13,446 nucleotides of DNA. Origin: Desulfonatronospira sp. (GTDB lineage: Bacteria > Desulfobacterota > Desulfovibrionia > Desulfovibrionales > Desulfonatronovibrionaceae). How positions within the stretch are numbered: the stretch's first letter is position 1; each line of letters starts with the position of its first letter. The notes below the pieces were generated by a model that saw only the letters and a program-made list of their open reading frames with translations, made no database searches and was not told the origin of the DNA. Positions 145 through 13,354 of this stretch are shown here, piece by piece. A program made the position numbers and the translations under genes. Location of the stretch: positions 1 to 13,446 of the forward strand of contig PWSL01000341.1 in the NCBI GenBank assembly GCA_003563255.1. Direction: 5' to 3'.

Positions 145-180
145 TCACAAAATACAAGAAAAATTTGAGCCATGGCGGGG

Positions 181-275
181 GTTCAGCGCTTGGCAGTGGG
201 ACTGTCCCGCACTTATTTTTGAAAATCTCATGGCTGTAACTTATTCATCAGAAAAATAAGTGCGGGACTGTCCCA
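181..275 (+). repeat. Palindromic element B, upstream of glmU
   Basis: Two 24-base arms (197-220 and 252-275) are inverted repeats with one mismatch. They read TGGGACTGTCCCGCACTTAT... and the complement. The loop is about 31 bases. A remnant of the outer end, GTTCAGCGCTT, stands at 181-191, and no matching right end is visible. The central stem (CCCGCACTTATTTTT) is the same as in element E. A GTG within the right arm at 260 opens a reading frame continuous with glmU, but it belongs to the repeat and is not a credible start. Confidence 0.8.
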
Positions 276-355
276 ATAGAGATAAGAACACTGCATTATC
301 TTGGATTACGGACACAACCCGCGTTAGAGTTTATTATTTTAGAAAGCTAAGCTTC

Positions 356-1786
356 ATGATTTCAGACATTCAAACATCAAGGCTGCCTGCTGACGCCGGA
401 GTGCTCGTCCTGGCGGCAGGCAAGGGAACGCGAATGCATTCGCCTCTGCCCAAGGTACTTCAGAAGCTTTTGGATAAACCCATGCTTTGGTATCTCCTGT
501 ATATGCTCTCCAGTACCTTCAACTCCCGGCCCATGGTGGTAACCGGGCATGGCAGAAGTCTAGTAGAGCAAAGCTGCGTCGGGTTTGATGCCGACTTTAT
601 ATTTCAGGAGCAGCAGCTTGGCACCGGACATGCCCTTCAGGTGGCCTGGAACAAAGTATTACAGCATGGCTTCAGCTGGCTGGTGGTTATAAACGGTGAT
701 ACACCACTGGCACAGTCGCAGCAGATCCGCACTCTGCTGGAATATACCCGGGAAAACAATGCTGACATAGGGCTTGTCAGCCTGACCCTTGAAGATCCTG
801 CAAGCTATGGTAGGGTTTTGCGGTTTGCCGACAACAGCGTAAAGGCTGTGATTGAGGCCAAAGATTATAACAGTGAGTTGGACGGCGGTGATACCAGGGA
901 AATAAATTCCGGCCTGTATGTCTTCAAGGTCAGCACGCTGGGCAAAATACTTTTTGAACTGGATTCCGATAATAAGCAGCAGGAACTTTACATCACGCAG
1001 CTTATTTCACTGGCCCAAAAGTCCGGAATGCGCGTTGATGCTTTGAATGCAGGCACATGCCCCGAACTTATGGGTATTAATACCCCTCGGGAACTGCTTG
1101 GTCAGGAAGAATACATCCGCGGCTTTATTGTGGATGAATTTATCGAACAGGGGGTAATCATCAGGTCTCCAGGAATGGTTCGGATAGGGCCGGAGGTGAT
1201 TATTGAACCTGGGGCTGAAATCTGCGGGCCAGTAGAGATTTATGGCCAAAGCAGGATTACTTCCCGGAGCAGTATCGCATCGAACTGCTATATAGAAGAC
1301 AGTTTTATTGATGGAGGGCAAGTTTTTTGCTTTTCTCATATTGAAAAATCTGTTATAGGTCCAGATACAAAAGTTGGTCCTTACGCCCGCTTGAGACCCG
1401 GAACTGAAATGCAAGGAGGATCCAGGGCCGGCAATTTCGTGGAGATCAAGAATTCACAGGTGGGCGCCGGAAGCAAGATCAACCATCTCTCTTATATTGG
1501 TGATACCACCATGGGTGAGGGGGTAAACGTCGGCGCCGGCACAATAACATGCAATTATGACGGTCGTTTGAAACATAGAACAACAGTCGAAGACGGGGTT
1601 TTCATCGGCAGTAATACCGCCCTGGTCGCTCCTGTCCTCCTTCAGCGCGGGAGCATGATAGCGGCCGGGTCCACCATTACCAGAGACGTGCTTCAAAACA
1701 GCCTGGGCATAGGCAGATCCAGGCAGAAAAACCTTGAGGGCAGAAGCCCTTTGAAAAAATTTAAAAACCAGGAAAAAAGCGACTGA
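356..1786 (+). CDS. glmU: Bifunctional GlmU: N-acetylglucosamine-1-phosphate uridyltransferase / glucosamine-1-phosphate acetyltransferase
   Basis: GlmU makes UDP-N-acetylglucosamine in the cytoplasm. It acetylates glucosamine-1-phosphate with acetyl-CoA and then transfers UMP from UTP, feeding peptidoglycan and lipid A synthesis. The 476-residue product has the nucleotidyltransferase signature LAAGKGTRM at 19-27, with the Rossmann-like domain to about 245. A left-handed beta-helix of hexapeptide repeats follows. K365 (in VEIKN) and H377 (in KINHLSYIGD) line up with E. coli K351 and the catalytic H363, both with an offset of 14. The start is ATG 356, because the frame extends upstream only into repeat B and the protein then begins near the family's usual point; there is no strong Shine-Dalgarno sequence. 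TTGGAT-N18-TAGAGT at 301-330 is a weak promoter candidate. The next small gene starts 2 nt after the stop. Confidence 0.96.
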   Translation: MISDIQTSRLPADAGVLVLAAGKGTRMHSPLPKVLQKLLDKPMLWYLLYMLSSTFNSRPMVVTGHGRSLVEQSCVGFDADFIFQEQQLGTGHALQVAWNKVLQHGFSWLVVINGDTPLAQSQQIRTLLEYTRENNADIGLVSLTLEDPASYGRVLRFADNSVKAVIEAKDYNSELDGGDTREINSGLYVFKVSTLGKILFELDSDNKQQELYITQLISLAQKSGMRVDALNAGTCPELMGINTPRELLGQEEYIRGFIVDEFIEQGVIIRSPGMVRIGPEVIIEPGAEICGPVEIYGQSRITSRSSIASNCYIEDSFIDGGQVFCFSHIEKSVIGPDTKVGPYARLRPGTEMQGGSRAGNFVEIKNSQVGAGSKINHLSYIGDTTMGEGVNVGAGTITCNYDGRLKHRTTVEDGVFIGSNTALVAPVLLQRGSMIAAGSTITRDVLQNSLGIGRSRQKNLEGRSPLKKFKNQEKSD

Positions 1787-1788
1787 AG

Positions 1789-1968
1789 ATGGAAGCCATA
1801 GAAAAGCTGGTGGAAAAGGTTGACAGACTTCTGGAATTAAAAAAAAGGCTGGAACAGGAAAATCAGAGTCTGAAGCAGGAACTCGAGGTCGAACGACAGA
1901 AAAACAGTATGGTCGCCGGCAAAGTCGATGAACTGCTGCAAAAAATTGAAGATGAAGCTTCTTTTTAA
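1789..1968 (+). CDS. Small coiled-coil protein, ZapB-like, between glmU and zapA
   Basis: This is a 59-residue gene of clear operon quality. Its ATG is 2 nt after the glmU stop and its TAA overlaps the zapA ATG (TAATG at 1966-1970). The product begins MEAIEKLVEKVDRLLELKKR and is almost all Leu, Glu, Lys and Gln in heptad-like spacing up to about residue 55, so a continuous coiled coil is predicted. There is no signal peptide or membrane segment. In many proteobacteria a short coiled-coil protein of the ZapB/DUF904 or TIGR02449 kind is encoded next to zapA. A role in tethering or bundling FtsZ at midcell together with ZapA is therefore likely, but it rests on context and composition rather than a recognised signature. 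Confidence 0.85.
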   Translation: MEAIEKLVEKVDRLLELKKRLEQENQSLKQELEVERQKNSMVAGKVDELLQKIEDEASF

Positions 1969-2240
1969 TGTTTGAGTACAATCTAAATATATTGGGTTTG
2001 GACTTAAATTTTAAAACTGATGCAGATCCGGAGCGCATTGATCAGGCAAGGGAATACCTGGAAAAGAGGTATTCAGAACTAAAAAACAGGGGCAAAAAGT
2101 TAAGCAAGGAAAGATTACTGGTATATCTTGCCCTGGGCCTGGCTGATGATTACTTACAAAGTGACATCAGACTGTCGCTTTTACAGGACAGGATAGACGA
2201 ACTGGTGAATAAAATAGATAGCCCCGAGGCTGATAAATAA
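1968..2240 (+). CDS. zapA: Cell division protein ZapA
   Basis: ZapA binds FtsZ and promotes bundling of its protofilaments, stabilising the cytokinetic ring. The 90-residue product has the family layout. A short N-terminal beta domain (MFEYNLNILGLDLNFKTDAD) is followed by a region resembling the family's pattern of placing the conserved D/E-rich turn before helix 1. A long C-terminal helix (about 45-85, including LVYLALGLADDYLQ) should form the dimer and tetramer coiled coil. The length is typical. The start overlaps the stop of the upstream coiled-coil gene, so the two are translationally coupled. The 6S RNA gene follows downstream, as it does beside zapA in many proteobacteria, although here a repeat cluster intervenes. 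Confidence 0.9.
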   Translation: MFEYNLNILGLDLNFKTDADPERIDQAREYLEKRYSELKNRGKKLSKERLLVYLALGLADDYLQSDIRLSLLQDRIDELVNKIDSPEADK

Positions 2241-2263
2241 GCTGTTCAAATGTTCAGCACAAT

Positions 2264-2537
2264 GTATCTGTTCAGCGCATTTAATCAAGGCATGGAACAG
2301 TCCGGCACTCACTTTTATCAAACAAGGTGGCTGGCAACATATAGTATTCCTTGTGAGTGCCGGACGGGACCCAGAAGAGCATTATTTTGTGCTTGCAATG
2401 ACTCTTTTTTTGGGTCAAGTGGCTTTCTGCCCCGCCTGAGGCTGGCACGACCCGTGCTTAAGGGCCGGAGGGGAAAGTCGGCCCGGAGGGGTTCAGAAGA
2501 GCCGTTCCCAGTGCGACATGCACTGCGCTGATATGGC
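2264..2537 (-). repeat. Composite palindromic element C between zapA and ssrS
   Basis: The left end GTATCTGTTCAGCGC (2264-2278) and a degenerate right end GCGCTGATATGGC (2525-2537) frame the element. Inside are three parts. (1) A 13-bp perfect stem GTCCGGCACTCAC / GTGAGTGCCGGAC (2300-2312 / 2353-2365). (2) A reversed copy of the GGGACCCA...TGGGTC central module (about 2366-2420), alignable base for base with elements H and K. (3) A GC-rich insert at about 2421-2493 that other copies lack. After the insert, CAGAAGAGCCGTTCCC (2494-2509) resumes the normal reversed end. A frame spanning 2250-2531 is not a gene: it is low-quality translation of the repeat. Confidence 0.75.
2421..2503 (+). other. 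GC-rich three-way-junction structure inside element C
   Basis: The closing stem is GGCTTTCTG-CCCC (2421-2433) with GGGG-TT-CAGAAGAGCC (2488-2503). It encloses hairpin GCACG-ACC-CGTGC (2445-2457) and hairpin GGGCCG / CGGCCC (2462-2467 / 2479-2484, 11-nt loop). It could be a small structured RNA, or simply an extra palindrome module. It does not match 4.5S RNA, tmRNA or RNase P RNA. The same fold would be available on either strand. Confidence 0.4.
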
Positions 2538-2650
2538 TGACACGTCAACTATTTGTGACTATTTGATATTTTTAAATCGGCGCAAATATTGTCCCAGCCC
2601 TCAGACTTAATGGATTGATGTGCCAGTCCATGGGATCTTAACAGATACAG

Positions 2651-2656
2651 TACAAT
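2651..2656 (+). promoter_or_regulatory. Putative -10 box of ssrS
   Basis: TACAAT lies 6 nt before the predicted 5' end of 6S RNA at 2663. No good -35 hexamer is found 16-18 nt upstream, so the call rests mainly on its position. Confidence 0.4.
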
Positions 2657-2662
2657 ATAATT

Positions 2663-2835
2663 CCTGGCAGGTACGTGATGGAGATGATTTATTTTGAGCC
2701 AACATTAACCTCGAGGGAGCCGTTGCGCAGTTCTGGTGAGCATGCCCCGCAAAGGCCGGGGAAGCCTGAAGGAATTGCTTTGGTGCCCACGTATATAAAC
2801 GAGGTTCAAGATAATCCCCCACACGGCCTGCCGGG
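2663..2835 (+). ncRNA. ssrS: 6S RNA
   Basis: 6S RNA mimics an open promoter and sequesters sigma70-RNA polymerase in stationary phase; it also templates short product RNAs. The 173-nt candidate has the expected long-hairpin plan. The 5' end CCTGGCAGG (2663-2671) pairs with the 3' end CCTGCCGGG (2827-2835) over 9 bp with one G-U. The apical arm carries the most conserved stretch of the family, TGGTGAGCATGCCCCG (2734-2749), closed by CGGGGAAGCC (2757-2766); E. coli 6S has TGGTGAGCATGCTCGG and GAGAAGCC at the same point. The middle is rich in unpaired bases, as expected for the central bubble. Its place downstream of zapA agrees with the usual zapA-ssrS order. The exact ends were set from the closing stem. 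Confidence 0.88.
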
Positions 2836-2962
2836 ATAAATATACTCAGCCAGACTACCTGCCTGGACCTGCCTAGATAAACCTTCAGGTATTTGCCTGC
2901 TCCCTGCTCAGAAGGGCATTGCCCGCAACCCAGGAGAAAGAAGCGCTCTTATCCCAATGCCA
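2836..2962. other. Unassigned spacer after ssrS
   Basis: I see no gene, convincing terminator or repeat copy here. In many proteobacteria a 5-formyltetrahydrofolate cyclo-ligase gene follows 6S RNA, but no part of one is recognisable. Confidence 0.5.
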
Positions 2963-3105
2963 ATGGGGACAGTCCCGCACCTTTTTTTCTAATGAAGTAT
3001 CTGTTTAGCACTACAGCGAAACTTATGGCTGCCCTCCGGGGACTGGCTCTTTTGCCGACCTCAAACCGTAAAAGGGCCGGACTATCCGGCGGAGTGACTG
3101 TCCCC
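2963..3105 (+). repeat. Palindromic element D with hybrid outer end
   Basis: The element starts with half of a B-type palindrome, GGGGACAGTCCCGCAC (2965-2980). Next comes GTATCTGTTTAGC (2997-3009), whose TAGC is shared with a following TAGCACTACAGCGAAACTT (3006-3024), so both outer-end types are fused at one border. Then GGGGACTGGCTCTTTTGCCG (3038-3057) pairs imperfectly with GGCGGAGTGACTGTCCCC (3088-3105). No right-hand outer end follows. Confidence 0.75.
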
Positions 3106-3185
3106 AAGTAAAAAAAGTTCACCATTTTCTAAGTGTCCTTGTAGGATTAATTGCATTTTTCTAAACTTAAAATTCCGGTTGTGCT

Positions 3186-3346
3186 TAGCACAACAGCGAA
3201 ACTTATGATCGACCTCCGGGGACTGGCTCTCCCCGCACTTATTTTTTCCAATAAAACCAAGATCTTTTTTAATAAAAATAAGTGCGGAGGTGCCTGTCCT
3301 CAATTGAGGTACAATATTATATTTTATAAGTTTCGCTGCAGTGCTA
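3186..3346 (+). repeat. Palindromic element E, complete type 1 copy
   Basis: Terminal inverted repeats at 3186-3206 (TAGCACAACAGCGAAACTT...) and 3326-3346 match at 19 of 21 positions. Inside, TCCGGGGACTGGCTCT (3215-3230) opens the second level and AGGTGCCTGTCC (3288-3299) closes it. The centre is CCCCGCACTTATTTTTT (3231-3247) against AAAAATAAGTGCGG (3274-3287). The 161-bp unit has no coding capacity. Confidence 0.85.
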
Positions 3347-3521
3347 GGCTATAACCATTTAAAATCATAAAGCTTTTTTCGAAAAACTTTCAACTGTTTC
3401 AGGGTGTCGGAAGAGCCGGCCCCCTGAGGCACAAATCAGTGTAGTTGCAGAGGGTTTATTGATACCGGGCCCCGGGATTTTTTGTGACAGGCTCGCGACA
3501 GAAACAGAGCTTTACATATAT
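3347..3521. other. Upstream region of rny
   Basis: This must hold the rny 5' leader. GTCGGAAGAGCCGGCCCCCTGAG (about 3406-3428) looks like a decayed repeat arm (compare AAGAGCCAGTCCCC). CCGGGCCCCGGGATTTTTT (3468-3485) is GC-rich followed by a T-run, but its self-complementary halves leave no room for a loop, so I do not call a terminator. No convincing sigma70 promoter was seen. Confidence 0.4.
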
Positions 3522-3533
3522 AAGGAGCAAACC

Positions 3534-5090
3534 ATGTGGAGTATAATCATTACCGCCCTTATTTTCCTTGCAGCCGGGGCTGCTGTGGGCTTCTGGGCTC
3601 AGAAGATATTATTCAACAAAAAGTACCAGGAAAACCAGGAGCTTGCTCAGAGAATTCTGGATGAAGCCAGAAAGGAAGCCACGGCTCAAAAAAAGGAAAT
3701 ACTGCTGCAGGCCAAGGACGAAGCCTTCAAGCAAAAAAAAGAGCTTGAAGAAGATGCCCGGGAGCGGGAAAAGGAGTTGAAAAAGCAGGAACAGAGACTG
3801 CAGGAAAAGGAAGAAAGGCTGGAAAATAAACTGGAAAAAGTGACCCAAAAGGAAAGCGAAGTGGTGGCCTGGGAGAACCAGTTGTCCAGGCAGGAACGTA
3901 GTTTTGCAGAAAAAGAGGGGCATCTCCAGGATCTGATCGATAGTCAGAGCAAAAAGCTGGAGGAAATATCAGGCCTTACCGTGGAAGATGCTAGAGCTCG
4001 TCTCATGCAGGAGATTGAGAGCAAGACCAGGCATGATGCCGCTAAAATGATACGCCAGATAGAGATGGAAGCTCAGGAATCGGCATCTAAAAGGGCAAAG
4101 GAGATACTGGCCCTTTCCATACAGCGCTATGCCGGAGACTATGTATCAGAACACACTGTATCTGCGGTAGAATTGCCCAGCGAAGACATGAAAGGCCGCA
4201 TTATCGGCCGCGAAGGGAGAAACATCCGCGCTATTGAGGCGGCTACCGGAGTTGATCTGATTATCGATGACACCCCTGAGACAGTAGTCCTGTCAGCTTA
4301 CAGCCCCCTGCGGCGTGAAGTAGCCAAGCAGTCTCTGGAAAGGCTCATAAGCGATGGCAGGATTCATCCGGCCCGTATTGAAGATATAGTTGATAAGGTC
4401 AGGAAAGAACTGGATATCAAACTGAGGGAAATCGGAGAGCAGGCAACCTTTGATGTAGGAGTGCACGGCATTCACCCGGATTTGATCCGTCTTCTAGGTC
4501 ACCTGCATTACCGTACCAGTTTTTCCCAGAATGTGATGCAGCATTCAATTGAGGTGGCATTTTTGTGTGGAATAATGGCTGCGGAACTTGGTCTGGATCA
4601 GAAAAAAGCGAAAAGGGCCGGTCTGCTGCATGATCTGGGCAAGGCCGTGGATCACGAAGTTGAAGGGCCCCATGCCTCCATTGGTGCGGATCTGGCCAAG
4701 AAACACAATGAATCCAAAGAGATTGTGCACGCAATAGCAGCACACCATGAGGACGTGCAACCCACCAGTATACTCGCTGTGCTGGTGCAGGCAGCGGACA
4801 GCCTTTCCGGGGCCCGGCCGGGGGCCAGGAAAGAGCTTTTGGAGAATTATGTCAACCGCCTGGAAGAGCTGGAAAAAATTGCCTCCGGCTTTGAAGGGGT
4901 GAATCGTTCTTTTGCCATCCAGGCCGGGCGGGAACTCCGGGTGATGGTGGATTGCGATCAGGTGGACGACGATGCCACCCACCTGATGTGCAAGGATATT
5001 GCCCAGAAAATCGAGGAAAACATTACCTACCCCGGGCAGATCAAGGTTACCGTAATCCGGGAAAAACGTTCTGTAGGATATGCAAAATAG
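3534..5090 (+). CDS. rny: Ribonuclease Y
   Basis: RNase Y is a membrane-anchored endoribonuclease that starts mRNA decay. The 518-residue product has the whole family layout: one N-terminal membrane helix (about 3-23), a long charged coiled coil (about 28-170, repeated KEK/KKE and EE runs), a KH RNA-binding domain with GRIIGREGRN at 221-230, and an HD metal-phosphohydrolase domain with LLHDLGK (H366-D367) and HHED (H404-H405). The length fits the usual ~520. The start is ATG 3534, preceded by AAGGAG (3522-3527) at good spacing, which puts the membrane helix at the very N-terminus; an in-frame extension back to 3459 would place 25 residues before it and has no ribosome site. Element F begins 10 nt after the stop. 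Confidence 0.96.
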   Translation: MWSIIITALIFLAAGAAVGFWAQKILFNKKYQENQELAQRILDEARKEATAQKKEILLQAKDEAFKQKKELEEDAREREKELKKQEQRLQEKEERLENKLEKVTQKESEVVAWENQLSRQERSFAEKEGHLQDLIDSQSKKLEEISGLTVEDARARLMQEIESKTRHDAAKMIRQIEMEAQESASKRAKEILALSIQRYAGDYVSEHTVSAVELPSEDMKGRIIGREGRNIRAIEAATGVDLIIDDTPETVVLSAYSPLRREVAKQSLERLISDGRIHPARIEDIVDKVRKELDIKLREIGEQATFDVGVHGIHPDLIRLLGHLHYRTSFSQNVMQHSIEVAFLCGIMAAELGLDQKKAKRAGLLHDLGKAVDHEVEGPHASIGADLAKKHNESKEIVHAIAAHHEDVQPTSILAVLVQAADSLSGARPGARKELLENYVNRLEELEKIASGFEGVNRSFAIQAGRELRVMVDCDQVDDDATHLMCKDIAQKIEENITYPGQIKVTVIREKRSVGYAK

Positions 5091-5100
5091 TTTAACCCTA

Positions 5101-5249
5101 TAACACTACAGCGCAACTTATTTATTGACCTCCGGGGACTGGCTCTTTTGCCGCCGAATTTTGAAGCATTTGCAAATTAGCAACCGGCAAAAGTGCCTGT
5201 CCCCAATTTAGACAGGTTGAAAAGTATTATAAGTTTCGCTGTAGTGCTA
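5101..5249 (+). repeat. Palindromic element F, complete type 1 copy, rny-tyrS gap
   Basis: Outer arms TAACACTACAGCGCAACTT (5101-5119) and AAGTTTCGCTGTAGTGCTA (5231-5249) frame the element. The second level is GGGGACTGGCTCTT (5134-5147) with AAGTGCCTGTCCCC (5191-5204); the two arms disagree only at two T-T positions. The centre is TTGCCG / CCGGCAA. The element lies in the rny 3' untranslated region and could act as a transcript-end stabiliser or weak bidirectional terminator, though no T-run follows it. Confidence 0.88.
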
Positions 5250-5319
5250 ACGCAATTTATAAAATGTGTGGCTGGTTAAATAATAATTTGTTTCGTTGTA
5301 TGGTTAATGCGGAGATGAA

Positions 5320-6522
5320 ATGAGAAGGGAGCATCAGGAAGCCATGGCGCTGATTCGGCGCGGCAGCGTAGAGATTATAAATGAAGCTGAACTTTTGAAA
5401 AAACTGGACGCCAAAGCCTCGCTCAGGGTCAAGGCCGGGTTTGACCCCACGGCACCTGACCTGCATCTGGGGCACACTGTACTGATTCAGAAGTTGAAGC
5501 ATTTCCAGGAACTCGGGCATCATGTGCTTTTTCTAATCGGAGATTTCACAGGCATGATCGGGGATCCTTCAGGCAAATCTGAAACCCGGAAAAAACTTAC
5601 GCGGCAGGAAGTGATTCAAAACGCTGAAACCTACAAACGTCAGATATTTAAAATTCTGCACCCGGAAAAAACAGAGCTGGTTTTCAATTCGACATGGATG
5701 GATCGTTTTCATGCCTCGGACTTTGTGGAACTTTGCTCCAGGTATACCGTGGCCAGGATGATGGAAAGGGATGATTTTGACATGCGTTTTCGGAATAATC
5801 GTTCCATAGCCATTCATGAATTTTTATATCCTCTGATCCAGGGGTATGACTCTGTGGAGTTAAGGGCTGACGTAGAACTCGGCGGTACAGATCAGAAATT
5901 CAACCTCCTGGTGGGAAGGGATCTTCAGCGTGAATACGGCCAGGAACCGCAGGTCATACTCACGGTGCCCATCCTGGAAGGCCTGGACGGGGTACAGAAA
6001 ATGAGTAAGTCTCTGGGCAATTATGTGGGTATAGAAGAACCTCCCGGGGAGATGTACGGGAAGCTGATGTCCATTTCAGATGATCTTATGTGGAGATATT
6101 ATGAGCTTCTATCAGATAAGGATTTACAGGAGATCAAATCCATGCAGGAAAAAGTCTCCCAGGGAGAGTTGCATCCCAAATACTGCAAGGAAGAACTGGC
6201 CCAGGAGATAACAGCCAGGTTTCACGATAACGAGAGTGCTGAAAGGGAAAGGGAAAATTTCCACCGGGTCTTTGCAGCCCAAGATGTGCCCCGGATTATG
6301 CCTGAGATGGTCATACATGAGCACGAGAAAAAGAAACTGGCGGATATCCTGGTGTCAAGCGGGTTCTGTCCGTCTCGCAGTGAGGCTAAAAGGCTCTGCA
6401 GGCAGAATGCAGTGAGTCTGTACCCGGGAGAAAAGCTGAGCGATCCAGAGGCTGGTTTTGAAACCGGGGAGTATACACTGAAAGTGGGCAAAAAAAGGTT
6501 TCTTAAGCTGAGTGTAAAGTAG
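5320..6522 (+). CDS. tyrS: Tyrosine--tRNA ligase
   Basis: This class I aminoacyl-tRNA synthetase charges tRNA-Tyr with tyrosine in the cytoplasm. The 400-residue product shows the class I motifs HLGH (49-52, in [13 protein letters not shown]) and KMSKS (227-231, in [11 protein letters not shown]). Between them lies the tyrosine and adenylate pocket ([17 protein letters not shown], and [16 protein letters not shown]). A C-terminal S4-like RNA-binding domain covers about 337-400 ([21 protein letters not shown]). The spacing and the KMSKS form resemble the TyrRS group of about 400 residues, different from the E. coli 424-residue form. ATG 5320 has GGAG at 5311-5314. The gene stands alone, with repeat F upstream and element G downstream. 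Confidence 0.95.
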
Positions 6523-6638
6523 CCTCAAGGTGTTGTTTGCCGGCTTGTATCCTGCCGCTTTGGTAATTAAAAAGGACTGGTCAGCGATAATTATTTACTG
6601 ATGAGCAGATCTTGCTGCAAAAATAACACTGCAGCGAC

Positions 6639-6679
6639 GTATCTCTTTAGCGCTTTACTTAAAAGGGCTGAACAGATAC
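6639..6679. repeat. Element G: outer ends only, no inner palindrome
   Basis: GTATCTCTTTAGC (6639-6651) and GCTGAACAGATAC (6667-6679) are inverted repeats matching at 11 of 13 positions, separated by only 15 bases. They match the outer ends of elements K and L. Just upstream, AATAACACTGCAGCGACG (about 6621-6638) resembles a type 1 end, so the site may be a remnant of both types. It lies in the tyrS to prenyltransferase gap. Confidence 0.7.
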
Positions 6680-6721
6680 TATTGAACAAAAAGTGTCGTT
6701 ATAATGAAAAAAGGCCTCCAT

Positions 6722-7615: not shown

Positions 7616-7680
7616 GGCTTTGGGGCCGGTATCGCCCCTCCTGAATGGTTGCCATTGCCAGGCACTGAATAGACTATTTG

Positions 7681-7808
7681 TGTCGGTTCAGCGATTTTTA
7701 GGATAGCAGGGGACAGGCACTCCGGGACCCGCTTGAGAATTATTTTGTGCTCAAAACGCTTTATTTTCTGGGACAAGTGGGTCCCGGAAGAGCCAGTCCC
7801 CATGCCAC
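7681..7808 (-). repeat. Palindromic element H in the gap before thrC
   Basis: GGGGACAGGCACTCCGGGACC... (7709-7737) pairs with CAAGTGGGTCCCGG-AAGAGCCAGTCCCC (7774-7801). It is a reversed copy of K and L with the same central stem and the same TTTTGTGCTCAAAA loop region. A degenerate outer end (TCGGTTCAGCG, 7683-7693) is on the left; on the right ATGCCACAT (7802-7810) continues the homology, then stops. The rest of the 264-bp gap holds GGGGC-CGGTATC-GCCCC (about 7622-7638), which lacks a T-run, and AACCAGGAACGATGAACCAG (7818-7837), also seen near 10745. Confidence 0.85.
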
Positions 7809-7879
7809 ATTTTTTTCTTGCAACCAGGAACGATGAACCAGCAACCTTGCACGTCAAGTAAAGATTTTTAGAGGTAGTA

Positions 7880-9325
7880 ATGTTCAGCGACTTATTTCCC
7901 ACCTATCGGGGAGAGCTAAAATATCATTGTCTGGAGTGTGCCAGAAAGTATCCCGGGGATGAGCTGCACTATACCTGCCCTGAATGCAGCGGGGTTTTCA
8001 TGTTGTGGGATGAGAATTTCCACGAGCTTAAAAAGCTGTCCGGGAAGGAATGGAGAACTGTTTTTGACGAGCGAGCAGCCAGCAAGATGACCCAGCTGCA
8101 GGGAATATTCAGGTTTTACGAACTAACTGCCCCGGTGGTGGAGAAAGAAGATATTGTTTACCTTGGAGAGGGCAATACCCCGGTTATCCAGTCATCACCG
8201 AAGCTGCAGAAGCTGGTGGGACAGAACATGGCCTTTAAAAACGACGGCCAGAATCCCAGCGCTTCGTTCAAGGACAGGGGCATGGCCTGTGCATTCAGCT
8301 ATTTAAAGCAATTGGTAAGGAAAAAGAACTGGGATCAGGTCCTGACCATCTGCGCTTCCACCGGGGATACTTCAGCCTCTGCAGCACTTTATGCCGCGTA
8401 TGTCGGCGATCCCATCAAGTCCGTGGTGCTTCTTCCGCAGGGCAAGGTCACCTCTCAGCAGCTTTCCCAGCCCCTGGGAAGCGGTGCAGTGGTGATTGAG
8501 CTGCCGGGTGTCTTTGATGACTGCATGCGGGTGGTAGAGTATCTGGCAGACAATTTCCGGGTGGCCCTGTTGAATTCCAAAAACCCATGGCGTATCCTGG
8601 GTCAGGAAAGTTATGCCTTTGAACTTGCCCAGTGGTGTTGCTGGGACATGTCCGGCAGAGTGGTGTTTGTCCCCATAGGCAATGCAGGAAATATTACGGC
8701 GGTAATGAGCGGTTTTTTAAAACTCAGGGATCTGGAAATTATTGATGGACTGCCCCGGATTTTTGGTGTGCAGTCCACCCATGCTGATCCGGTGTACCGC
8801 TACTACCGCCAGACGCCGGGAAGCAGGAGCTATGCACCGGTGGATGTCAGCCCCAGTGTCGCCCAGGCCGCCATGATCGGCAATCCTGTTTCATTTCCCA
8901 GGGTGCGGGAACTGGCGGACAGGTATCAGCGGGAGCAGGGGACCGATGCCTTTAATGTGGTGCATGTAGAGGAACAGCAGATCATAGAAGCAATGCTGCT
9001 TGCCAACCAAAACGGGCATATTGCCTGCACCCAGGGGGGGGAATGCCTGGCAGGTCTTATGCAGGCCAGGGAGCAGGGCCTGCTGGATGCAAGTGAAACG
9101 GCCATCCTGGATGCCACTGCCCATGCCCTGAAGTTCAGCGGCTTCCAGGAGATGTATTTCAAGAATTCTTTTCCCAGGGGATACGAAATCATACCCAGAG
9201 AAGAATATATAAATCAGCCCCAAAGGGTGCTCAGCGAAGAGGATAAAGAACGGTTGAGCAAGGAAGAGTTTACCAGGGCGGCAGTTGAGGAAATGGTTCG
9301 AGTTCTTGGACTTCAGGGTAATTGA
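7880..9325 (+). CDS. thrC: Threonine synthase
   Basis: This PLP enzyme converts O-phosphohomoserine to threonine, the last step of threonine synthesis. The 481-residue product opens with a zinc-ribbon-like CxxC-x12-CxxC (C17, C20, C33, C36), common in the large threonine synthases of deltaproteobacteria and archaea. It then has the fold type II PLP site: K131 in NPSASFKDRGMA is the Schiff-base lysine, and GNAGN at 267-271 is the phosphate-binding loop. EGNTPV (near 96) and the CASTGDTSASAALYAAY stretch (about 158-174) are further family marks. Relatives in this fold (cysteate synthase, diaminopropionate enzymes) are less likely. ATG 7880 follows GAGG (7871-7874). The stop lies 13 nt inside the convergent radical SAM gene. 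Confidence 0.93.
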   Translation: MFSDLFPTYRGELKYHCLECARKYPGDELHYTCPECSGVFMLWDENFHELKKLSGKEWRTVFDERAASKMTQLQGIFRFYELTAPVVEKEDIVYLGEGNTPVIQSSPKLQKLVGQNMAFKNDGQNPSASFKDRGMACAFSYLKQLVRKKNWDQVLTICASTGDTSASAALYAAYVGDPIKSVVLLPQGKVTSQQLSQPLGSGAVVIELPGVFDDCMRVVEYLADNFRVALLNSKNPWRILGQESYAFELAQWCCWDMSGRVVFVPIGNAGNITAVMSGFLKLRDLEIIDGLPRIFGVQSTHADPVYRYYRQTPGSRSYAPVDVSPSVAQAAMIGNPVSFPRVRELADRYQREQGTDAFNVVHVEEQQIIEAMLLANQNGHIACTQGGECLAGLMQAREQGLLDASETAILDATAHALKFSGFQEMYFKNSFPRGYEIIPREEYINQPQRVLSEEDKERLSKEEFTRAAVEEMVRVLGLQGN

Positions 9326-10365
9326 TGTGCAGCTCCGGCCAGCAGGAACAGTTCTTTTTTCCAGGCCTGTGTATTTTTCCTGAAAATACCCAGCCGCCTG
9401 AAAAGACCGGCATTTTGCATTTTATGTCCCCAGAAATCGCCAATATACTTTTCTGGCACAAAAATCCGGGCAGGCGGATGTCCCAGGCGTGCAGTCATGG
9501 CAGCTACGTATGCTCCCAGTGCCAGTCCACGGCAGATCGAGCCCAGGGCCGGATGCCATGGTCCGGCTATTATTTCGGACAAAAGAGAGGTTTCCGGAGC
9601 CAGTCCCACTCGAATCACCGGGATCCCGGCAGCCCACATTCTAAGCAGGGCGTTAGAGATCAGAGCCTGGGTGGTCTGTAAAATCCAGGGCCTGTACTCT
9701 CCTCTGGACCAGAGGTTCGCCAGGGGGGTGTTCGCAAGTACAAGACAGGGGTAGAGGCGCAACGCAGAAGGCTTTAACTCTTCTGTTATTCTCATGTCAC
9801 CGGCAAATGTCCCTGGATTTGAACCCGGCAGGCCCGGCATCAACTGTATTCCAAGGTCCATGCGGCTTTTTTTGACCATCCAGGAGGCCTCCAGGGCCTT
9901 GTCCCCGGTATATCCTCTTCTGGAAAGTGACAGCACCCGGCTGTCAAAGCTCTGCACCCCCAGTTCCACCATGTCCACACCGTAGTCCTGCAGGAGTCTC
10001 AGCTGGTCCTGGTTTACGTAGTCCGGTCTGGTGGAGCACCTGACGTGGCTTAGGGCTCCCATGTCCTTTAATTCTCTGGCCAGGTTAAGAAAAAGGAGCT
10101 GTCTATGCCTGGGCATGGCTGTGAAAGTTCCTCCGAAAAAGCCCAGAGCAAATGTCTTGCCTGAGCTGCTGAACTCGGAATATATATCGTCATGCATCTT
10201 TCGGGCGATAGTCTTCAGGTGGATTATTGGTTGGCCTGTCTGGGTCTCCTGGGAACAGTAGATGCACCTGTCGGGGCAACCGGCAAAGGGAAGGAAAACA
10301 GGATATAAGCGGACCTTGTTCCGGTAAGGCTCTGGATGTCGAAAAAATAATCCTGGCAGATTCAT
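9313..10365 (-). CDS. Radical SAM protein, Elp3-like without acetyltransferase domain
   Basis: The 350-residue product carries the radical SAM cluster CxxxCxxC at C30, C34 and C37 (GCPDRCIYC), which ligates the 4Fe-4S cluster that cleaves S-adenosylmethionine. The SAM-contacting GFFGGTFT is at 75-82 and ELGVQSFD at 134-141. These motifs, with LRLYPCLVLANTPL further on, resemble the Elp3/COG1243 group. Full Elp3 proteins exceed 450 residues and end in a GNAT acetyltransferase domain, which is absent here; the last ~80 residues are not recognised. A role in tRNA modification is possible but unproven. The start is ATG at 10365 with only a weak ribosome site (TTGAG on the minus strand). TACTAT on the minus strand at about 10383-10388 could be a -10 box. 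Its stop overlaps thrC by 13 nt. Confidence 0.85.
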   Translation of the reverse strand: MNLPGLFFRHPEPYRNKVRLYPVFLPFAGCPDRCIYCSQETQTGQPIIHLKTIARKMHDDIYSEFSSSGKTFALGFFGGTFTAMPRHRQLLFLNLARELKDMGALSHVRCSTRPDYVNQDQLRLLQDYGVDMVELGVQSFDSRVLSLSRRGYTGDKALEASWMVKKSRMDLGIQLMPGLPGSNPGTFAGDMRITEELKPSALRLYPCLVLANTPLANLWSRGEYRPWILQTTQALISNALLRMWAAGIPVIRVGLAPETSLLSEIIAGPWHPALGSICRGLALGAYVAAMTARLGHPPARIFVPEKYIGDFWGHKMQNAGLFRRLGIFRKNTQAWKKELFLLAGAAHQLP

Positions 10366-10405
10366 TTTGTCTCAAAACTTAATAGTATTTTAGTGTCAGG
10401 GCAGG

Positions 10406-10589
10406 CAGGGTTTCAGGAGTAAGTCACCAGGCTTTTTCCGCGACCTTGCACGGAAAAAGTGGCCCCTTCGGGGCATCATCCGGTTAATCCCTGCAGGACG
10501 CGTTGAGCACGGGGACTGGCTATCCCGGGATTTATTTTTCTAATCTGTTTCATGTTCAATAAAAAATAAGTGCCGGGGTGCCTGTTTCC
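10406..10589 (+). repeat. Palindromic element I with flank shared with A
   Basis: GGGGACTGGCTATCCCGGG (10511-10529) plus ATTTATTTTT pairs with AAAAAATAAGTGCCGGGG (10561-10578) and TGCCTGTTTCC. The left flank, about 10406-10510, is the same unit as 41-144 in opposite orientation and includes GCCCC-TTC-GGGGC. The repeat lies upstream of the radical SAM gene and pointing away from it. Confidence 0.82.
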
Positions 10590-10626
10590 ACAAACATGAA
10601 AGCAAGGATTTTTTCTTTTCTTTCTT

Positions 10627-10746
10627 GTTCCCAGGCTCCAGCCTGGGGATATCGTTTTTTTGTGGCTCCAGCCACATTTTTTAAGAAGCGGTTGGTGCCG
10701 CAAGAACAAGGCATTTCCAGGCTGGAGCCTGGGAACGAGAGGTAAC
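10627..10746 (+). repeat. Serial hairpin repeat M1 (GGCTCCAGCC core)
   Basis: Four short hairpins follow each other: TTCCCAGGCTCCAGCCTGGGG (10628-10647, perfect 7-bp stem), TGTGGCTCCAGCCACA (10661-10676), GCGGTTGGTGCCGC (10688-10701), and TCCAGGCTGGAGCCTGGGA (10716-10733). All are built round GGC(T/A)CCAGCC or its complement. The portion 10654-10746 recurs inverted at 13355-13446. It is unrelated in sequence to the GGGGACTGGCTC family. Confidence 0.85.
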
Positions 10747-11039
10747 CAGGAACGAAGAACCAGGAACCAGGAACCGATTTTAACGACCAACATGTTGGTT
10801 TGAAATTTTCACTAAGCGCCTGAGTCGCTCAGACAGTTTGCGGCCATTTTGCCAAACCCCGGAACCTGCAAGGACATAACTCGAAAAAAAACTTCACGGC
10901 TTCAGGTTTACTGTTCAGGTATAATTAAATAAAACAAAAGGTTGCAAAAAAAAAATATTTGGATAGACTAGCTTGAACAGATCGTCAAATAATCAAGGGT
11001 GTTGAATACATGAAAGTGTGTGGATATTCATCCGGCCAT
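10747..11039. other. Gene-free stretch with short motifs
   Basis: No gene was found. ACCAGGA occurs three times at about 10745-10772. A perfect 14-bp palindrome ACCAACATGTTGGT is at 10786-10799. A small hairpin CTGAG-TCG-CTCAG is at 10820-10832. TATAAT at 10920-10925 lies in AT-rich sequence but lacks a matching -35 box. The purpose of these is unknown. Confidence 0.45.
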
Positions 11040-11189
11040 TAGCACTACAGCAAAACTTGTATAATACAGTATGGTATCTCAATTGGAGACAGACACTTTT
11101 GCCGATGGAAAACTGTCACCTGCTCAAAAATCCCGGCGGCAAAAGAGCCAGTCCCGGGATGGCAATAAAAAATTTTCGCTGTAGAGTCA
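11040..11189 (-). repeat. Palindromic element J, type 1 ends, reversed
   Basis: TAGCACTACAGCAAAACTT (11040-11058) and AATTTTCGCTGTAGAGTCA (11171-11189) are the outer arms. The inner level is GGAGACAGACAC (11086-11097) with AGAGCCAGTCCC (11144-11155), and the centre is TTTTGCCG / CGGCGGCAAAA. Read in reverse, its first ~55 bases align with the right end of element E, including CAATTGAG and the outer arm. Confidence 0.8.
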
Positions 11190-11344
11190 GGCTGTGCCCT
11201 CAAACCCGGCATGTTGTTGACCACAGTCTCTGACCGAATGTCAATGCACTGCTCAAATATCTGAAAATTAATAACCTGATACCTTTTATGTCCGAAACCC
11301 CGGCGGATGAGCATCGGCCTGGGCAGTGACAATGATTAAGGGTC
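11190..11344. other. Spacer between elements J and K
   Basis: No gene was found. TTGACC at 11217-11222 is a fair -35 box, but the hexamer 17 nt on (GTCAAT) is poor. A promoter for the HIT gene somewhere here is possible but was not identified. Confidence 0.35.
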
Positions 11345-11495
11345 GTATCTGTTTAGCGCTTTGCATGTAGCATGGGGACTGGCTCTTCCGGGACCCACTT
11401 GTCCCAAAAAATGAGATATTTTAAGCACAAAATGATGCTCAAGTGGGTCCCGGAGTGCCAGTCCCCTGCTTTCCTTAAAAGCGCTAAACTGTTAC
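11345..11495 (+). repeat. Palindromic element K, complete type 2 copy, next to the HIT gene ribosome site
   Basis: Outer arms GTATCTGTTTAGCGCTTT (11345-11362) and AAAAGCGCTAAACTGTTAC (11477-11495) frame GGGGACTGGCTCTTCCGGG... (11374-11400) and CAAGTGGGTCCCGG-AGTGCCAGTCCCC (11440-11465). The inner stem runs about 25 bp with one mismatch and one bulge. The right end stops 9 nt before AGAGGAGGT, the ribosome site of the next gene. Confidence 0.88.
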
Positions 11496-11515
11496 AAGGA
11501 GTCAGAGGAGGTAAT

Positions 11516-11935
11516 ATGCAGGACTGCATATTCTGCAAGATTGTCAGGGGAGAAATTCCCAGTGCAAAGGTGTATGAGATAGAATCAGTACTCTGTTTTC
11601 TGGATGTTGCGCCAGCTGTAAAGGGGCACTGCCTGGTTATCCCGAAGGTTCATGTGGAAAATATTCTGGAGATGCCCGAGGATATGGCCGCTGATGTGCA
11701 CAGGGTAATCCGCAAGGCCGGCCGGGGAATAATCCAGGGTTTGAAAGCCGACGGATTCAACGTGGGTATGAATAATTTTCAGGCGGCAGGCCAGGTGGTC
11801 ATGCATGCACACTGGCACTTGATTCCTCGTTTCAAGGGGGACGGATTGCAGCTCTGGCCGCAGTACAAATATGACAGTAATCAGGAAATGCAGTCAGTTG
11901 CACAAAACCTAAGTTCAGCTATCCAGCAGCCATGA
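11516..11935 (+). CDS. HIT-family nucleotide hydrolase (HinT-like)
   Basis: HIT proteins hydrolyse nucleotidyl phosphoramidates and related nucleotide conjugates in the cytoplasm. The 139-residue product begins MQDCIFCKIVRGEIPSAKVY, the usual HinT-type start with a CxxC pair (C4, C7) that binds zinc in many members. It ends its core with HAHWHLIPR, whose H97, H99 and H101 form the histidine triad; H99 or H101 would be the nucleophile region. The length fits the family. The physiological substrate is not known for most bacterial members. ATG 11516 has a strong Shine-Dalgarno (AGGAGGT, 11506-11512). The longer in-frame extension to 11372 only translates element K. The IHF/HU gene follows after 91 nt, probably in the same transcript. 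Confidence 0.93.
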   Translation: MQDCIFCKIVRGEIPSAKVYEIESVLCFLDVAPAVKGHCLVIPKVHVENILEMPEDMAADVHRVIRKAGRGIIQGLKADGFNVGMNNFQAAGQVVMHAHWHLIPRFKGDGLQLWPQYKYDSNQEMQSVAQNLSSAIQQP

Positions 11936-12026
11936 TAAATACTGAGAGGTAACCGTATACCCAGCGCATGTATTTCAGGACCATTACACAAGTCGGAATA
12001 CAGTTAATATCCACGGGAGGAGGCCT

Positions 12027-12320
12027 ATGGTAAATACCTTAACCAAGTCGGATCTGGTGGACAGGGTTTATGAGCAAAGTGAACGTAACCGTCCAGAGGT
12101 CAAAGACCAGGTAGAAGGACTGCTGGACATAATCAAGCGCGTTATCAAACAGGACCACTCACTGTTAATAAGCGGTTTCGGCAAATTTGAAACCTACGAC
12201 AAAAGACCCAGGAAGGGCCGCAATCCTCAGACCAGCGAAGAAATTATTCTTCCGGCGCGCAAGGTAGTGGTTTTCAGGTTGTCCAGGAAGTTTCGAGCAG
12301 AGATTAATCAGCAATTATAA
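12027..12320 (+). CDS. HU/IHF-family DNA-bending protein, IHF-alpha-like
   Basis: This small nucleoid protein dimerises and bends DNA through two beta arms. The 97-residue product has the two-helix dimer base (about 3-43), GFGKF at 50-54, and the arm RKGRNPQTSEEIILPARKVV (62-81). RNPQT carries P67, the proline that intercalates between base pairs in IHF and HU, and the arm ends in VVFRLSRKFR. The RKGRNPQT form and the extra N-terminal residues are closer to IHF alpha than to HU; whether it works as a homodimer or with a partner is not visible. ATG 12027 follows GGGAGGAGG (12015-12023). Its last 17 nt overlap the stop end of the convergent rlpA gene. Confidence 0.92.
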   Translation: MVNTLTKSDLVDRVYEQSERNRPEVKDQVEGLLDIIKRVIKQDHSLLISGFGKFETYDKRPRKGRNPQTSEEIILPARKVVVFRLSRKFRAEINQQL

Positions 12321-13074
12321 AGACTCTTGGGATGTTTAGGGCCAGGCTGTCCCTGGCTGCTTCCGCTTCCCCAACGGTGCTGAATTTTCCGGCTTGTACT
12401 CTCCATAAGTTTATGCCATCAATTTCTGTTTGCTGAATACGTGTTTCCCGGTAACCCAGACCCTGCATGCTGGTCTTTTTGTTTTCAGCGTTTTCCCTTT
12501 TAGAAAAAGACCCTACCTGCACATAAAAGGTGCCGGGCAGTTCTTTCCGGGAAGCGCTGCCAACCGCCTTGACCCGTACCGGTGCCGTTCCAGGACCGAT
12601 TATGTCCAGTTCTCTGGCTGCTGCCAGGGACAGGTCGATTATACGGTCATCCTTAAAAGGTCCGCGGTCGTTTATCCTTAACCTTATGGTTTTGTCGTTC
12701 TCCATGTTTGTCACCTGCACCTTGGTATGCATGGGCAGCAACCTGTGGGCGGCAGTCATTGCGTACATATTGTAGACTTCTCCACTGGCGGTTTTTTTCC
12801 CGTGGAATTTGGGTCCGTACCATGAAGCTATTCCCTCTTCTTCAAACCCTTCTGATGATGACAATGGGATGTATGTCTGTCCCAGGACGGTGTATTTCCG
12901 GTCCTTGTCCAGTTTAGTAATCGGCAGATCGGGTCGGGCTGTTTCCTCACGGGGCTTTTCAATCTTTGACGGTGGAGAAGGTGGATGAACCTTGCGCGGG
13001 GTACACGCGACAACAAGGCCTAGTACTGAAATGATCGAAATAACGACCAAATAATTGAAAAAAAGTCGCCTCAT
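12304..13074 (-). CDS. rlpA: RlpA-type septal lytic transglycosylase lipoprotein with SPOR domain
   Basis: RlpA is a lipoprotein that cleaves peptidoglycan lacking stem peptides at the septum. The 256-residue product has a lipoprotein signal peptide ending in LGLVVAC, so C24 is the lipidated residue. A Pro/Lys-rich linker follows (about 25-75). The double-psi beta-barrel catalytic domain spans about 80-171 (GIASWYGPKFHGKKTASGE; INDRGPF at 134-140 with the conserved Asp; DRIIDLS at 143-149). A C-terminal SPOR domain at about 181-256 (TFYVQVGSFSKRENAE) binds denuded septal glycan. The start is ATG 13074, with GGAAG 7 nt upstream and a proper signal peptide; a TTG 21 codons further up lies only about 16 nt from the predicted transcription start. 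It fits the division theme of glmU and zapA elsewhere in the window. Confidence 0.93.
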   Translation of the reverse strand: MRRLFFNYLVVISIISVLGLVVACTPRKVHPPSPPSKIEKPREETARPDLPITKLDKDRKYTVLGQTYIPLSSSEGFEEEGIASWYGPKFHGKKTASGEVYNMYAMTAAHRLLPMHTKVQVTNMENDKTIRLRINDRGPFKDDRIIDLSLAAARELDIIGPGTAPVRVKAVGSASRKELPGTFYVQVGSFSKRENAENKKTSMQGLGYRETRIQQTEIDGINLWRVQAGKFSTVGEAEAARDSLALNIPRVFIIAD

Positions 13075-13159
13075 GTTCTGCTTCCGTTTAGAATTTTGTT
13101 TGTTTTTCACTTTATTTTTGAGTTGCTCTGAGCGCAAGTGGTGTTTGCCAGGTCTGTTG

Positions 13160-13188
13160 ATTATACATGTCCGTTACTTACTTTTCAA
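13160..13188 (-). promoter_or_regulatory. Sigma70 promoter of rlpA
   Basis: On the minus strand TTGAAA (13188-13183) and TATAAT (13165-13160) are separated by exactly 17 nt. Transcription would begin near 13153 and leave a leader of about 79 nt before the rlpA ATG. This is the best promoter match in the window. Confidence 0.75.
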
Positions 13189-13220
13189 CCCCTGGAAATG
13201 ATGTTCACCATAAATAAATG

Positions 13221-13342
13221 GTATCTGTTCAGCGCTTTGCATGTGGCACGGGGACTGGCTCTTCCGGGACCCACTTGTCCCAGAAAATGAGTCGTTTTGA
13301 GCACAAAAGGATGCTCAAGTGGGTCCCGGAGTTGCCCGTCCC
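13221..13342 (+). repeat. Palindromic element L, type 2, right end missing
   Basis: The left end GTATCTGTTCAGCGCTTT (13221-13238), inner arm GGGGACTGGCTCTTCCGGG... (13250-13276) and CAAGTGGGTCCCGG (13316-13329) closely match element K. Position 13330 onward reads AGTTGCCCGTCCCC instead of AGTGCCAGTCCCC. The expected right end after CTGCTTTCC is absent; repeat M2 begins there instead. Confidence 0.85.
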
Positions 13343-13354
13343 CTGCTTTCCTCT

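Follow-up and report, generated by a model that had tools for sequence, protein, structure and literature searches.

Intergenic palindromes of a Desulfonatronospira genome as probable composites of miniature transposable elements around a shared hairpin module

The stretch of Desulfonatronospira sp. DNA analysed here (contig PWSL01000341.1, C397 in our numbering, positions 1 to 13,446; hereafter the window, meaning the whole 13,446-nt stretch) belongs to a 3.52-Mb draft genome of 532 contigs that is 99% complete (G000). Among its genes, family profiles were scored for ZapA, a ZapB-like protein, a UbiA-like prenyltransferase, a radical-SAM protein, a HIT protein and RlpA, with the ZapB, HIT and radical-SAM scores falling under the curated cut-offs; glmU, rny, tyrS, thrC and IHF are named from a reading of their translations, without a family search. 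Between these genes lie copies of layered palindromic elements. We consider it probable, at roughly 70%, that these copies are composite miniature elements, in which shells of DDE-type miniature inverted-repeat transposable elements (MITEs) surround a shared hairpin module and the layers have been swapped by nesting and recombination.

A preliminary description of the window, made from the sequence alone, had placed about a dozen copies in its intergenic gaps, and this was borne out well above chance. Direct and inverted repeat families span positions 1-13446 (for example the arms 11345-11391/11449-11495, and 1-144, which is 92% complementary to 10406-10549). Single-stranded DNA folding of five stretches of the window, two of them on both strands (seven folds in all), gave z-scores between -6.1 and -12.8, the latter for 11346-11494. 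Genome-wide, the sequence GGGGACTGGCTCT (at most one mismatch) occurs 675 times (331 + 344), compared with 8 times (4 + 4) for the reversed control. As judged from the sequence and the list of open reading frames, the 91-nt spacer between the HIT and IHF genes (11936-12026) is indeed the one real gene gap without a visible copy.

The layers were catalogued in a sample of 497,941 bases in 61 stretches, the window among them. Of the 40 taken beyond the first 20 contigs, most were picked because they contain matches or genes for Y1 transposases; copy densities per kb from this sample are biased upward, and C1-C20 alone were taken irrespective of hits. Two outer types had initially been distinguished, and both of their arms recur in the sample: A, which starts with GTATCTG (arm GTATCTGTTYAGCGC), and B (TAGCACTACAGCGAAACTT). 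To these must be added outer C, a sister of B with other inner flanks (CACTACAGCGACACTT), and a further context, D (CGTTGAGCAC / ACAAACATGCAAGC). The second layer is represented by 286 half-sites that differ from GGGGACWGGCWC at no more than one position. Exact half-sites are mainly the L end GGGGACTGGCTC (114) and the R end GGGGACAGGCAC (103), with the crossed forms GGGGACAGGCTC and GGGGACTGGCAC found four and three times, respectively. Pairing of 210 half-sites yields 105 modules, which measure 60-109 bp and with few exceptions less than 100 bp; 91 of them have one L and one R end. The two ends are thus inverted, as had been described, but the repeat is imperfect, with two conserved mismatches between the 12-nt ends; when 13250-13343 is folded, the bases left unpaired are consistent with these positions. 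Within the modules, the three central stems reported for the window all recur in the sample: K (TTTTGCCG), S (GCACTTATTTTT) and W (GGGACCCACTTG).

In the window itself, three copies are complete. Two are B elements on the plus strand: one of 155 bp with an S centre (3189-3343; flanks TTAG/CTAG, matching at 3/4 positions; fold z -8.0 for 3189-3338) and one of 143 bp with a K centre in the rny-tyrS gap (5104-5246; flanks ATAA/CTAA, again 3/4). The third is a 151-bp A element with a W centre (11345-11495, plus strand). A degenerate B element with a K centre, 144 bp long, lies at 11043-11186 (plus). The A type is further represented by a degenerate copy at 2264-2512 (plus; A arm GTATCTGTTCAGCGC at 2264, fragments of S and W centres, repeat families D5, D6, D12 and I5), by a 'solo' A palindrome of 41 bp that has neither a module nor a target duplication (6639-6679, plus), by a W-centre module at 7680-7801 (minus; repeats I2 and I4, half-sites at 7709 on the plus and 7789 on the minus strand) whose R-side arm (7680-7697) is degenerate and whose L-side arm is missing, and by a left arm with a complete W module (13250-13343, fold z -6.9) at 13221-13343 (plus), which has lost its right arm, belongs to the D1 family and is 92% identical to 11345-11456. 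At 2997-3114 (plus), the first 12 nt of an A arm (GTATCTGTTTAG) join a B arm and its flank at TTAG; this chimera carries a K-centre module with half-sites at 3038 (plus) and 3093 (minus) and has lost its right outer. Two copies lie in context D: one, clipped by the window start (1-144, minus), has an S-centre module with its L end at 27-38 and the D left flank GCAGGACGCGTTGAGCAC, and the other (10406-10594, plus) consists of the D left flank, a module with an S-like centre and the right flank ACAAACATG. Finally, a variant hairpin module, TGGGACTGTCCC, with an S centre lacks an A or B outer (197-275, no strand assigned; inverted repeat I20, fold z -10.3 for 198-275).

The nature of the outer layers was apparent from their flanks. 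Facing arms at 100-220 bp with flanking sequence were collected from the 498-kb sample, leaving aside pairs too near a contig end to have flanks, and element starts were assumed at GTATCTG for A and at CACTACAGCG for B/C; terminal inverted repeats are present in both sets (28 A pairs and 32 B/C pairs). An exact 8-bp duplication flanks 10 of the 28 A pairs, and three more have one mismatch, compared with a mean of 0.39 and a maximum of 4 when the flanks were re-paired at random in 10,000 trials. The B/C outers have an exact duplication of 4 bp in 20/32 pairs, with one mismatch in seven more (re-paired mean 3.7, maximum 12). All but one of these 20 have the form NTAN (TTAG, CTAA, ATAA, TTAT, ATAT and others), the remaining one being TCAG. 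The exact duplications are spread over the centres, with S 5, W 4 and S+W 1 for A, and S 11, K 8 and one unclassified for B/C. Assuming another end or length abolished the signal, save for the excess to be expected from the palindromy of the arms or from inner sequence of the repeat itself. Two fixed duplication lengths indicate two different transposases of the DDE kind. Taken jointly with the composite reading as a whole, and held with the same confidence, the outermost layer probably represents the terminal inverted repeats of DDE-type MITEs from at least two unrelated families, A and B/C.

Y1 enzymes are not known to leave target duplications of fixed length. Movement of the whole elements by a RAYT (transposase of the Y1 type associated with repetitive extragenic palindromic, REP, sequences) is therefore rejected for the outers, both of which have such duplications. 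The preliminary description had suggested one non-autonomous family mobilised in trans, by a RAYT or a DDE transposase. Mobilisation in trans is supported for the outer layers by their target duplications, and the single family gives way to at least two unrelated MITE families that share an inner module; there is evidence for both kinds of enzyme, at separate layers, since the outers behave as DDE-type MITEs and layer 2 has a motif found beside RAYT-like (TIRYT) transposases. Layered elements with module and duplications are also present in G006, a five-contig assembly of a relative, where an A element (L119) is flanked on both sides by AAGCCCCA and two B elements by TTAT (L131) and TTAG (L139), and they are thus not an artefact of one draft assembly. 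Context D was found at 12 places, several of them near contig ends. Its left flank is conserved over about 75 nt, contains GCGGAAAAAG...GGCCCCTTCGGGGC and ends in GCAGGACGCGTTGAGCAC; at the nine of the 12 places inspected, no terminal repeat or duplication that would mark D as a further MITE was seen.

We then tabulated which centre lies in which shell, scoring outers by arm matches and centres by motif. Among A outers, 18 enclose S, 17 W, none K and one another centre; the B outers hold S in 20, K in seven and W in one case, and the C outers K in 12, S in five, W in none and another centre in one. Context D accounts for five S centres, and a further seven modules have mixed outers and 11 no intact outer. 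The S centre hence occurs in all four contexts, and the earlier statement that centres do not stay with one outer type was upheld, yet the pairing departs strongly from random (chi-square test over A, B and C, p = 2e-9): K does not occur in pure A, and W hardly occurs in B and C. One particular loop deep within the S module, GCCGTCAAACATCCTTCAG (at most two mismatches), occurs 15 times in the sample enlarged to 688 kb: six times in A, five in B, three in C and once in an unassigned context. The same inside within unrelated outsides argues for exchange rather than convergence.

Exchange between copies, as had been proposed for the window, is likewise supported by chimeras with duplications of their own. 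The A arm contains TTAG, a B/C target, and at L100:6778 a complete C element lies within an A arm with TTAG on both sides: the arm runs to ATCTGTTTAG, the C element follows, and the arm resumes with TTAGCGCTTTTATGG before the remainder of the A element, which has a module of its own. In six other copies (L035, L091, L253, L263, L259, which is cut, and the window copy at 2999), an A arm extends to the same joint and is followed by a B or C arm. The joint reads TTAG, or TTGG in L263. None of them has the distal B end, and the four complete chimeras terminate in an A end. Three of them are flanked by exact 8-bp duplications (TTTATCAG in L035, CATTTTTT in L091, ATAATCCG in L253), and L263 matches at 7/8 positions, which indicates that they moved after they had formed. 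These findings suggest a possible sequence of events, the most economical that we can propose. Modules would have been captured by MITEs in the past; the landing of one MITE in the arm of another would then bring two similar modules together, which may be the source of much of the swapping. Deletion or template switching between the two modules could yield a chimera that retains its A ends and may transpose again through them.

What the shells carry resembles known REP-type sequences. The R end GGGGACAGGCAC, with GGGGACAG, fits GGGGWSAS, which a passage of PMC3733652 by Di Nocera and colleagues gives as the motif common to the ends beside RAYT-like genes named TIRYT; a passage of PMC6006769 places 20 of 26 TIRYT in TnpA_REP subclass 2.1. 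A 5' tag of the GTAG type is absent from the module, which ends in GGGGAC, and we therefore do not file it as a canonical GTAG REP. Four Y1_Tnp hits were obtained in the Desulfonatronospira genome, two of which, L033 and L034 (312 aa), belong to the same type. The match of L034 to REP_Tyr (REP_Tyr_transpos, NF047646) has an E value of 8e-17 and 61 bits, under the curated cut-off of 80; a Pfam search at E 1e-3 gave no helix-turn-helix (HTH) domain for L034, and L031 has HTH_23. Matches to L034, fragments included, number 14 in this genome and 25 in G010; in G006, where 22 of 68 candidates were scored, there are 22. Relatives of this transposase also occur in bins labelled Desulfonatronovibrio and Desulfohalobiaceae; Bacteroidales and Thermoplasmata labels come from short contigs and may reflect misbinning. 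Several of these bins presumably derive from soda-lake sediment projects.

A motif like the module end recurs in front of these genes. All 23 Y1 genes read in G006 (19) and G010 (4) have GGGACAG at a distance of 85-120 nt upstream of their start, although many of these genes are close copies and not all are independent. GGGACAG or GGGGACAG also precedes L034 and L033, and GGGACAG precedes L055 and L057. Among the 14 strongest of 30 Y1 loci, taken one per genome from four families (L180 and L182 repeat L034 and L226), GGGACAG is upstream in 11, and the other three have GGGACGG, GTGACAG and GGGACAT. L056, L058, L059 and L060, whose match is partial or whose contig is cut, were left out when the upstream motif was assessed; L060 nonetheless has GGGACAG in that place. 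As background, the motif occurs in 0/312 tiles of 200 nt from 12 small contigs of the Desulfonatronospira genome and in 32/520 tiles of the Y1 stretches. The fit of the R end to GGGGWSAS, together with GGGACAG upstream of the Y1 genes, leads us to read the module as a REPIN-like pair of TIRYT-type ends (REPIN, a REP doublet forming a hairpin). Layers 2 and 3 are accordingly best read, from their sequence, as a REPIN-like hairpin cargo of both MITE families.

Within the best-resolved group of G006 Y1 genes (L215-L223), homology starts on the left 91-97 nt ahead of the ATG, immediately beyond the motif at -85. Right edges in G006 vary widely: some precede the stop codon and others lie over 700 nt past it. 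This fairly constant left edge near GGGACAG, with strongly varying right edges, looks like one-ended mobility. The Y1 gene is multi-copy in G006 (L210-L225), with four copies close together in L213. Separately, tandem arrays of three and four modules were noted at L038:1826-2160 and L076:8341-8730, spaced by 103-124 bp and joined through truncated A arms.

We also looked for the transposases that might have given rise to the shells. The Desulfonatronospira genome was searched, with PF03050 and PF01609 only, for a transposase flanked by the same outer ends, as the preliminary description had envisaged, and neither family gave one that has A or B ends. Facing arms at 0.4-4.5 kb, sought in part of the same genome, gave no autonomous candidate. 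The one such pair with an exact duplication that was read, a B pair of 446 bp at L093:5690 flanked by TTAA, contains no open reading frame longer than 91 codons. PF03050 detected one gene, an IS66 transposase (L110, contig C430). Having A flanks and GGGGAC ends on either side, it was considered as the autonomous partner of A, and was rejected because its IS66 ends are GTAACTTCTCAATAGTTC and the insertion sequence lies inside an A element. It measures 2622 bp with CAAAAACA on both sides, the boundaries being taken from the alignment with a 99.6% copy in G016. This IS66 element (L110/L116 in G000:C430 and L117 in G016:C227) also encodes a DruA-like protein (PF14236, E 2.5e-43). Its 99.6% copies across two genera suggest recent transfer or misbinned contigs. 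As a B partner, DDE_Tnp_1 (PF01609) was likewise discarded, since none of its five hits has an A or B arm (at most three mismatches) in the available flanks. A class-wide pattern search of 348 genomes for a B arm with GGGGAC returned short B pairs and no autonomous element, with low counts, its spacer having been several bases too long; a B-arm search of 21 genomes gave, among the matches listed, no autonomous element and only short B pairs. In G029, the sequence after an IS66 transposase is GTAATAGTTTAGCGCTTTGCA (L118), which by a count made by eye, and with one end seen, is 18/21 identical to the A arm GTATCTGTTTAGCGCTTTGCA. In the part of the table in PMC3281130 available to us, two IS66 entries have 8-bp repeats, the length found for A, and an IS5-group entry and an IS1182 entry have 4 bp. 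To judge by the similarity of these ends and by the 8-bp duplications, the parent family of A is likely to be IS66, although the Desulfonatronospira genome has no IS66 transposase with an A-like end.

The negative result with PF03050 and PF01609 weighs against the composite reading, and so do several other observations. The assembly is a draft, and its contigs are interrupted at repeats. No exact duplication flanks the complete copies of the window, with 3/4 matches at the two B elements and none at the A element, and the short A palindromes without a module (14 pairs, about six of them judged chance matches of degenerate arms) show no duplications either. An inverted CTGTCCC within 300 nt downstream was found for one of the 23 Y1 genes; the two-sided arrangement that gave TIRYTs their name is thus not confirmed, and we do not claim formal membership for the module. 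Module and enzyme do not always go together, as G015 has 48 module matches and one weak Y1 relative only, and G012 has 18 Y1 matches with module counts at background. None of the 105 modules lies clearly alone in unique DNA: all 11 without an intact outer retain a partial A or C inner flank or stand in tandem arrays. With no lone module, present-day movement of the module by Y1 is not shown.

This last point bears on the strongest alternative, by which a Y1 transposase (TIRYT) would actively move the GGGGAC module as single-stranded DNA and insert it into the loops of MITE palindromes, so that the outers would be targets and the swapping a matter of repeated insertions. Breakpoints of the outers at the GGGGAC edge in all four contexts are in line with such insertions, as is the presence of the module's motif at the Y1 genes, but 0/105 modules clearly outside a MITE or array context is difficult to reconcile with them. 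Module-less elements are equivocal. An A palindrome at L054:5965 has a spacer of 21 nt, near the 11+11 nt found beside the module in filled copies and, not being equal to it, rejected as an exact empty site; the remaining module-less A palindromes have shorter or unequal spacers. A module-less B element with TTAT on both sides in G006 (L269) also lacks several nt of flank and hence provides no exact empty site. Both L269 and L054:5965 fit loss of a module as well as a state before insertion. We regard module mobility of this kind as improbable, though it is the rival that fares best.

A second alternative is that the hairpins are retained as intergenic regulatory or terminator structures, similar to bacterial interspersed mosaic elements (BIMEs), and that their mobility is ancient. 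Strong hairpins do occur in nearly all gaps, and exact duplications are absent in 18/28 A and 12/32 B/C pairs. Against this, the exact duplications that exist and the distribution of the elements fit recent spread: in 17 other genomes of the family, GGGGACTGGCTCT counts range from 0 to 195 and lie clearly above their controls only in G010 (195), G006 (100) and G015 (48), with G002 (10) and G005 (14) slightly over. Abundance of the element is lineage-specific. The rny-tyrS gap, which measures 229 nt in the window and contains a B element, offered the comparison of orthologous sites that had been suggested as a check, with both genes present in 10 of the 12 loci of relatives. In eight of these ten (G002, G003, G004, G007, G010, G013, G015 and G016) the gap, rny stop codon included, is 28-218 nt long and contains no A or B arm (at most four mismatches) and no module end (at most three mismatches). 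Of the other two, G006 has a 496-nt gap with a different palindrome, GTCCCGCACTTACTTTCT..., and G009 one of 913 nt with weak matches only. An element-free gap in 8/10 readable relatives favours an insertion, and purely retained structures of ancient mobility are in our view a distinctly unlikely explanation.

Beyond the family, B/C arms were found in 14 of 21 further genomes, from families f1, f2 and f4, and not in the two f3 genomes among them examined. In other families of the order, B arms enclose other palindromes, and exact 4-bp duplications flank 9/15 distinct pairs (L230-L249); the 21-genome search yielded at least 16 B-arm pairs with exact 4-bp repeats, 124-274 bp in size. Examples of the enclosed sequence are a CGCGAAGGCGGG palindrome in G025 and CCCCGTG...CACGGGG in G045, G049 and G029. 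CCCCGTGTGCCCCGTGG (at most one mismatch) is present in 6/7 genomes of another genus and was found neither in the Desulfonatronospira genome nor in G006; in G049 it also occurs at places without a listed B arm. The differing palindromes within B arms indicate that the cargo of the B shell differs between hosts. This may tentatively be extended to a general cassette system, in which shells with fixed DDE ends, such as the CACTACAGCG shell, would repeatedly take up palindromes that are common in the host, and shells belonging to unrelated transposases would trade them through nesting and recombination, so that one hairpin family might ride several transposases. Conversely, a single MITE family diversified by mutation, with outers A, B and C and the three centres as diverged descendants of one palindrome, can be set aside as very improbable, as the closeness of the B and C arms (CACTACAGCGAAACTT / CACTACAGCGACACTT) and the non-random outer-centre pairs are outweighed by duplications of 8 bp for A and 4 bp for B/C, which point to different transposases, by one loop inside A, B and C, and by the B arms of other families, whose enclosed palindromes are unrelated and whose pairs have exact 4-bp duplications in 9/15 cases.

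Three further features of the window are recorded here. A 6S RNA (RF00013; score 94.6 bits, gathering threshold 46.4) lies at 2658-2841 on the plus strand between zapA and rny, with degenerate element copies on either side. A second palindromic repeat family, CCCAGGCTCCAGCCTGGG and GTGGCTCCAGCCAC, forms 94-nt inverted copies of 95% identity at 10656-10749 and 13353-13446, and a palindrome resembling it is enclosed by the B arms of an element in a relative (L241). The repeat CCAACATGTTGGTTTGAAATTTTCACTAAGCGCCTGA occurs at about 10785-10830 and in the flanks of L041, L085, L092 and L100, and several B elements lie beside or within it.

Each part of the composite has known counterparts. Like the bacterial MITEs NEMIS, Chunjie and MITEAba12, as far as the accounts available to us describe them, the elements are short, non-coding, intergenic and of high copy number, with terminal inverted repeats and target duplications; they differ in that two families of different duplication length enclose one REP-like module, with chimeras, and in that autonomous partners were not found. 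With the REPIN/BIME and RAYT systems, as outlined in passages of PMC3116915 and PMC2817692, they share inverted, imperfect REP-like ends, a hairpin with a variable inside and a REP_Tyr-like Y1 gene in the genome, but here the ends are GGGGAC rather than GTAG-tagged and the modules occur only in MITE-derived flanks or arrays. The TIRYT/TIRtron sequences, in the sections of PMC3733652 and PMC6006769 concerned with them, have a GGGGWSAS motif beside RAYT-like genes, which GGGGACAG fits, and repeats present as dimers. TIRYT families are there called 'moderately abundant' (PMC3733652), in contrast to the hundreds of copies nested in MITEs here, for which the downstream inverted copy is found at 1/23 genes. 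A precedent for layering is provided by the double inverted repeats that surround the P. putida 607 and P. fluorescens 4255 genes, in which REP units are joined to unrelated stem-loops in hundreds of copies; unlike here, the passage describing them mentions neither target duplications nor MITE ends of two kinds (PMC3733652). Among open-licence papers on REP/MITE composites, Desulfonatronospira transposases and TIRYT, we found no description of this composite, and arm and module strings searched as text in such papers returned unrelated work only. The parts are of known kinds, namely two MITE types and a TIRYT-like REP hairpin; it is their combination for which we found no description.

REP sequences and MITEs are usually handled as separate classes with separate enzymes. 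If the composite reading is correct, one hairpin module travels in MITEs of two transposition chemistries. The genome would preserve the steps of this process, from plain elements through an element nested in the arm of another to chimeras that jumped again and acquired a duplication of their own, and the exchange of parts between non-autonomous elements would thereby become directly testable. It would also provide a route by which a REP-like family may reach hundreds of copies without a transposase of its own acting on the module.

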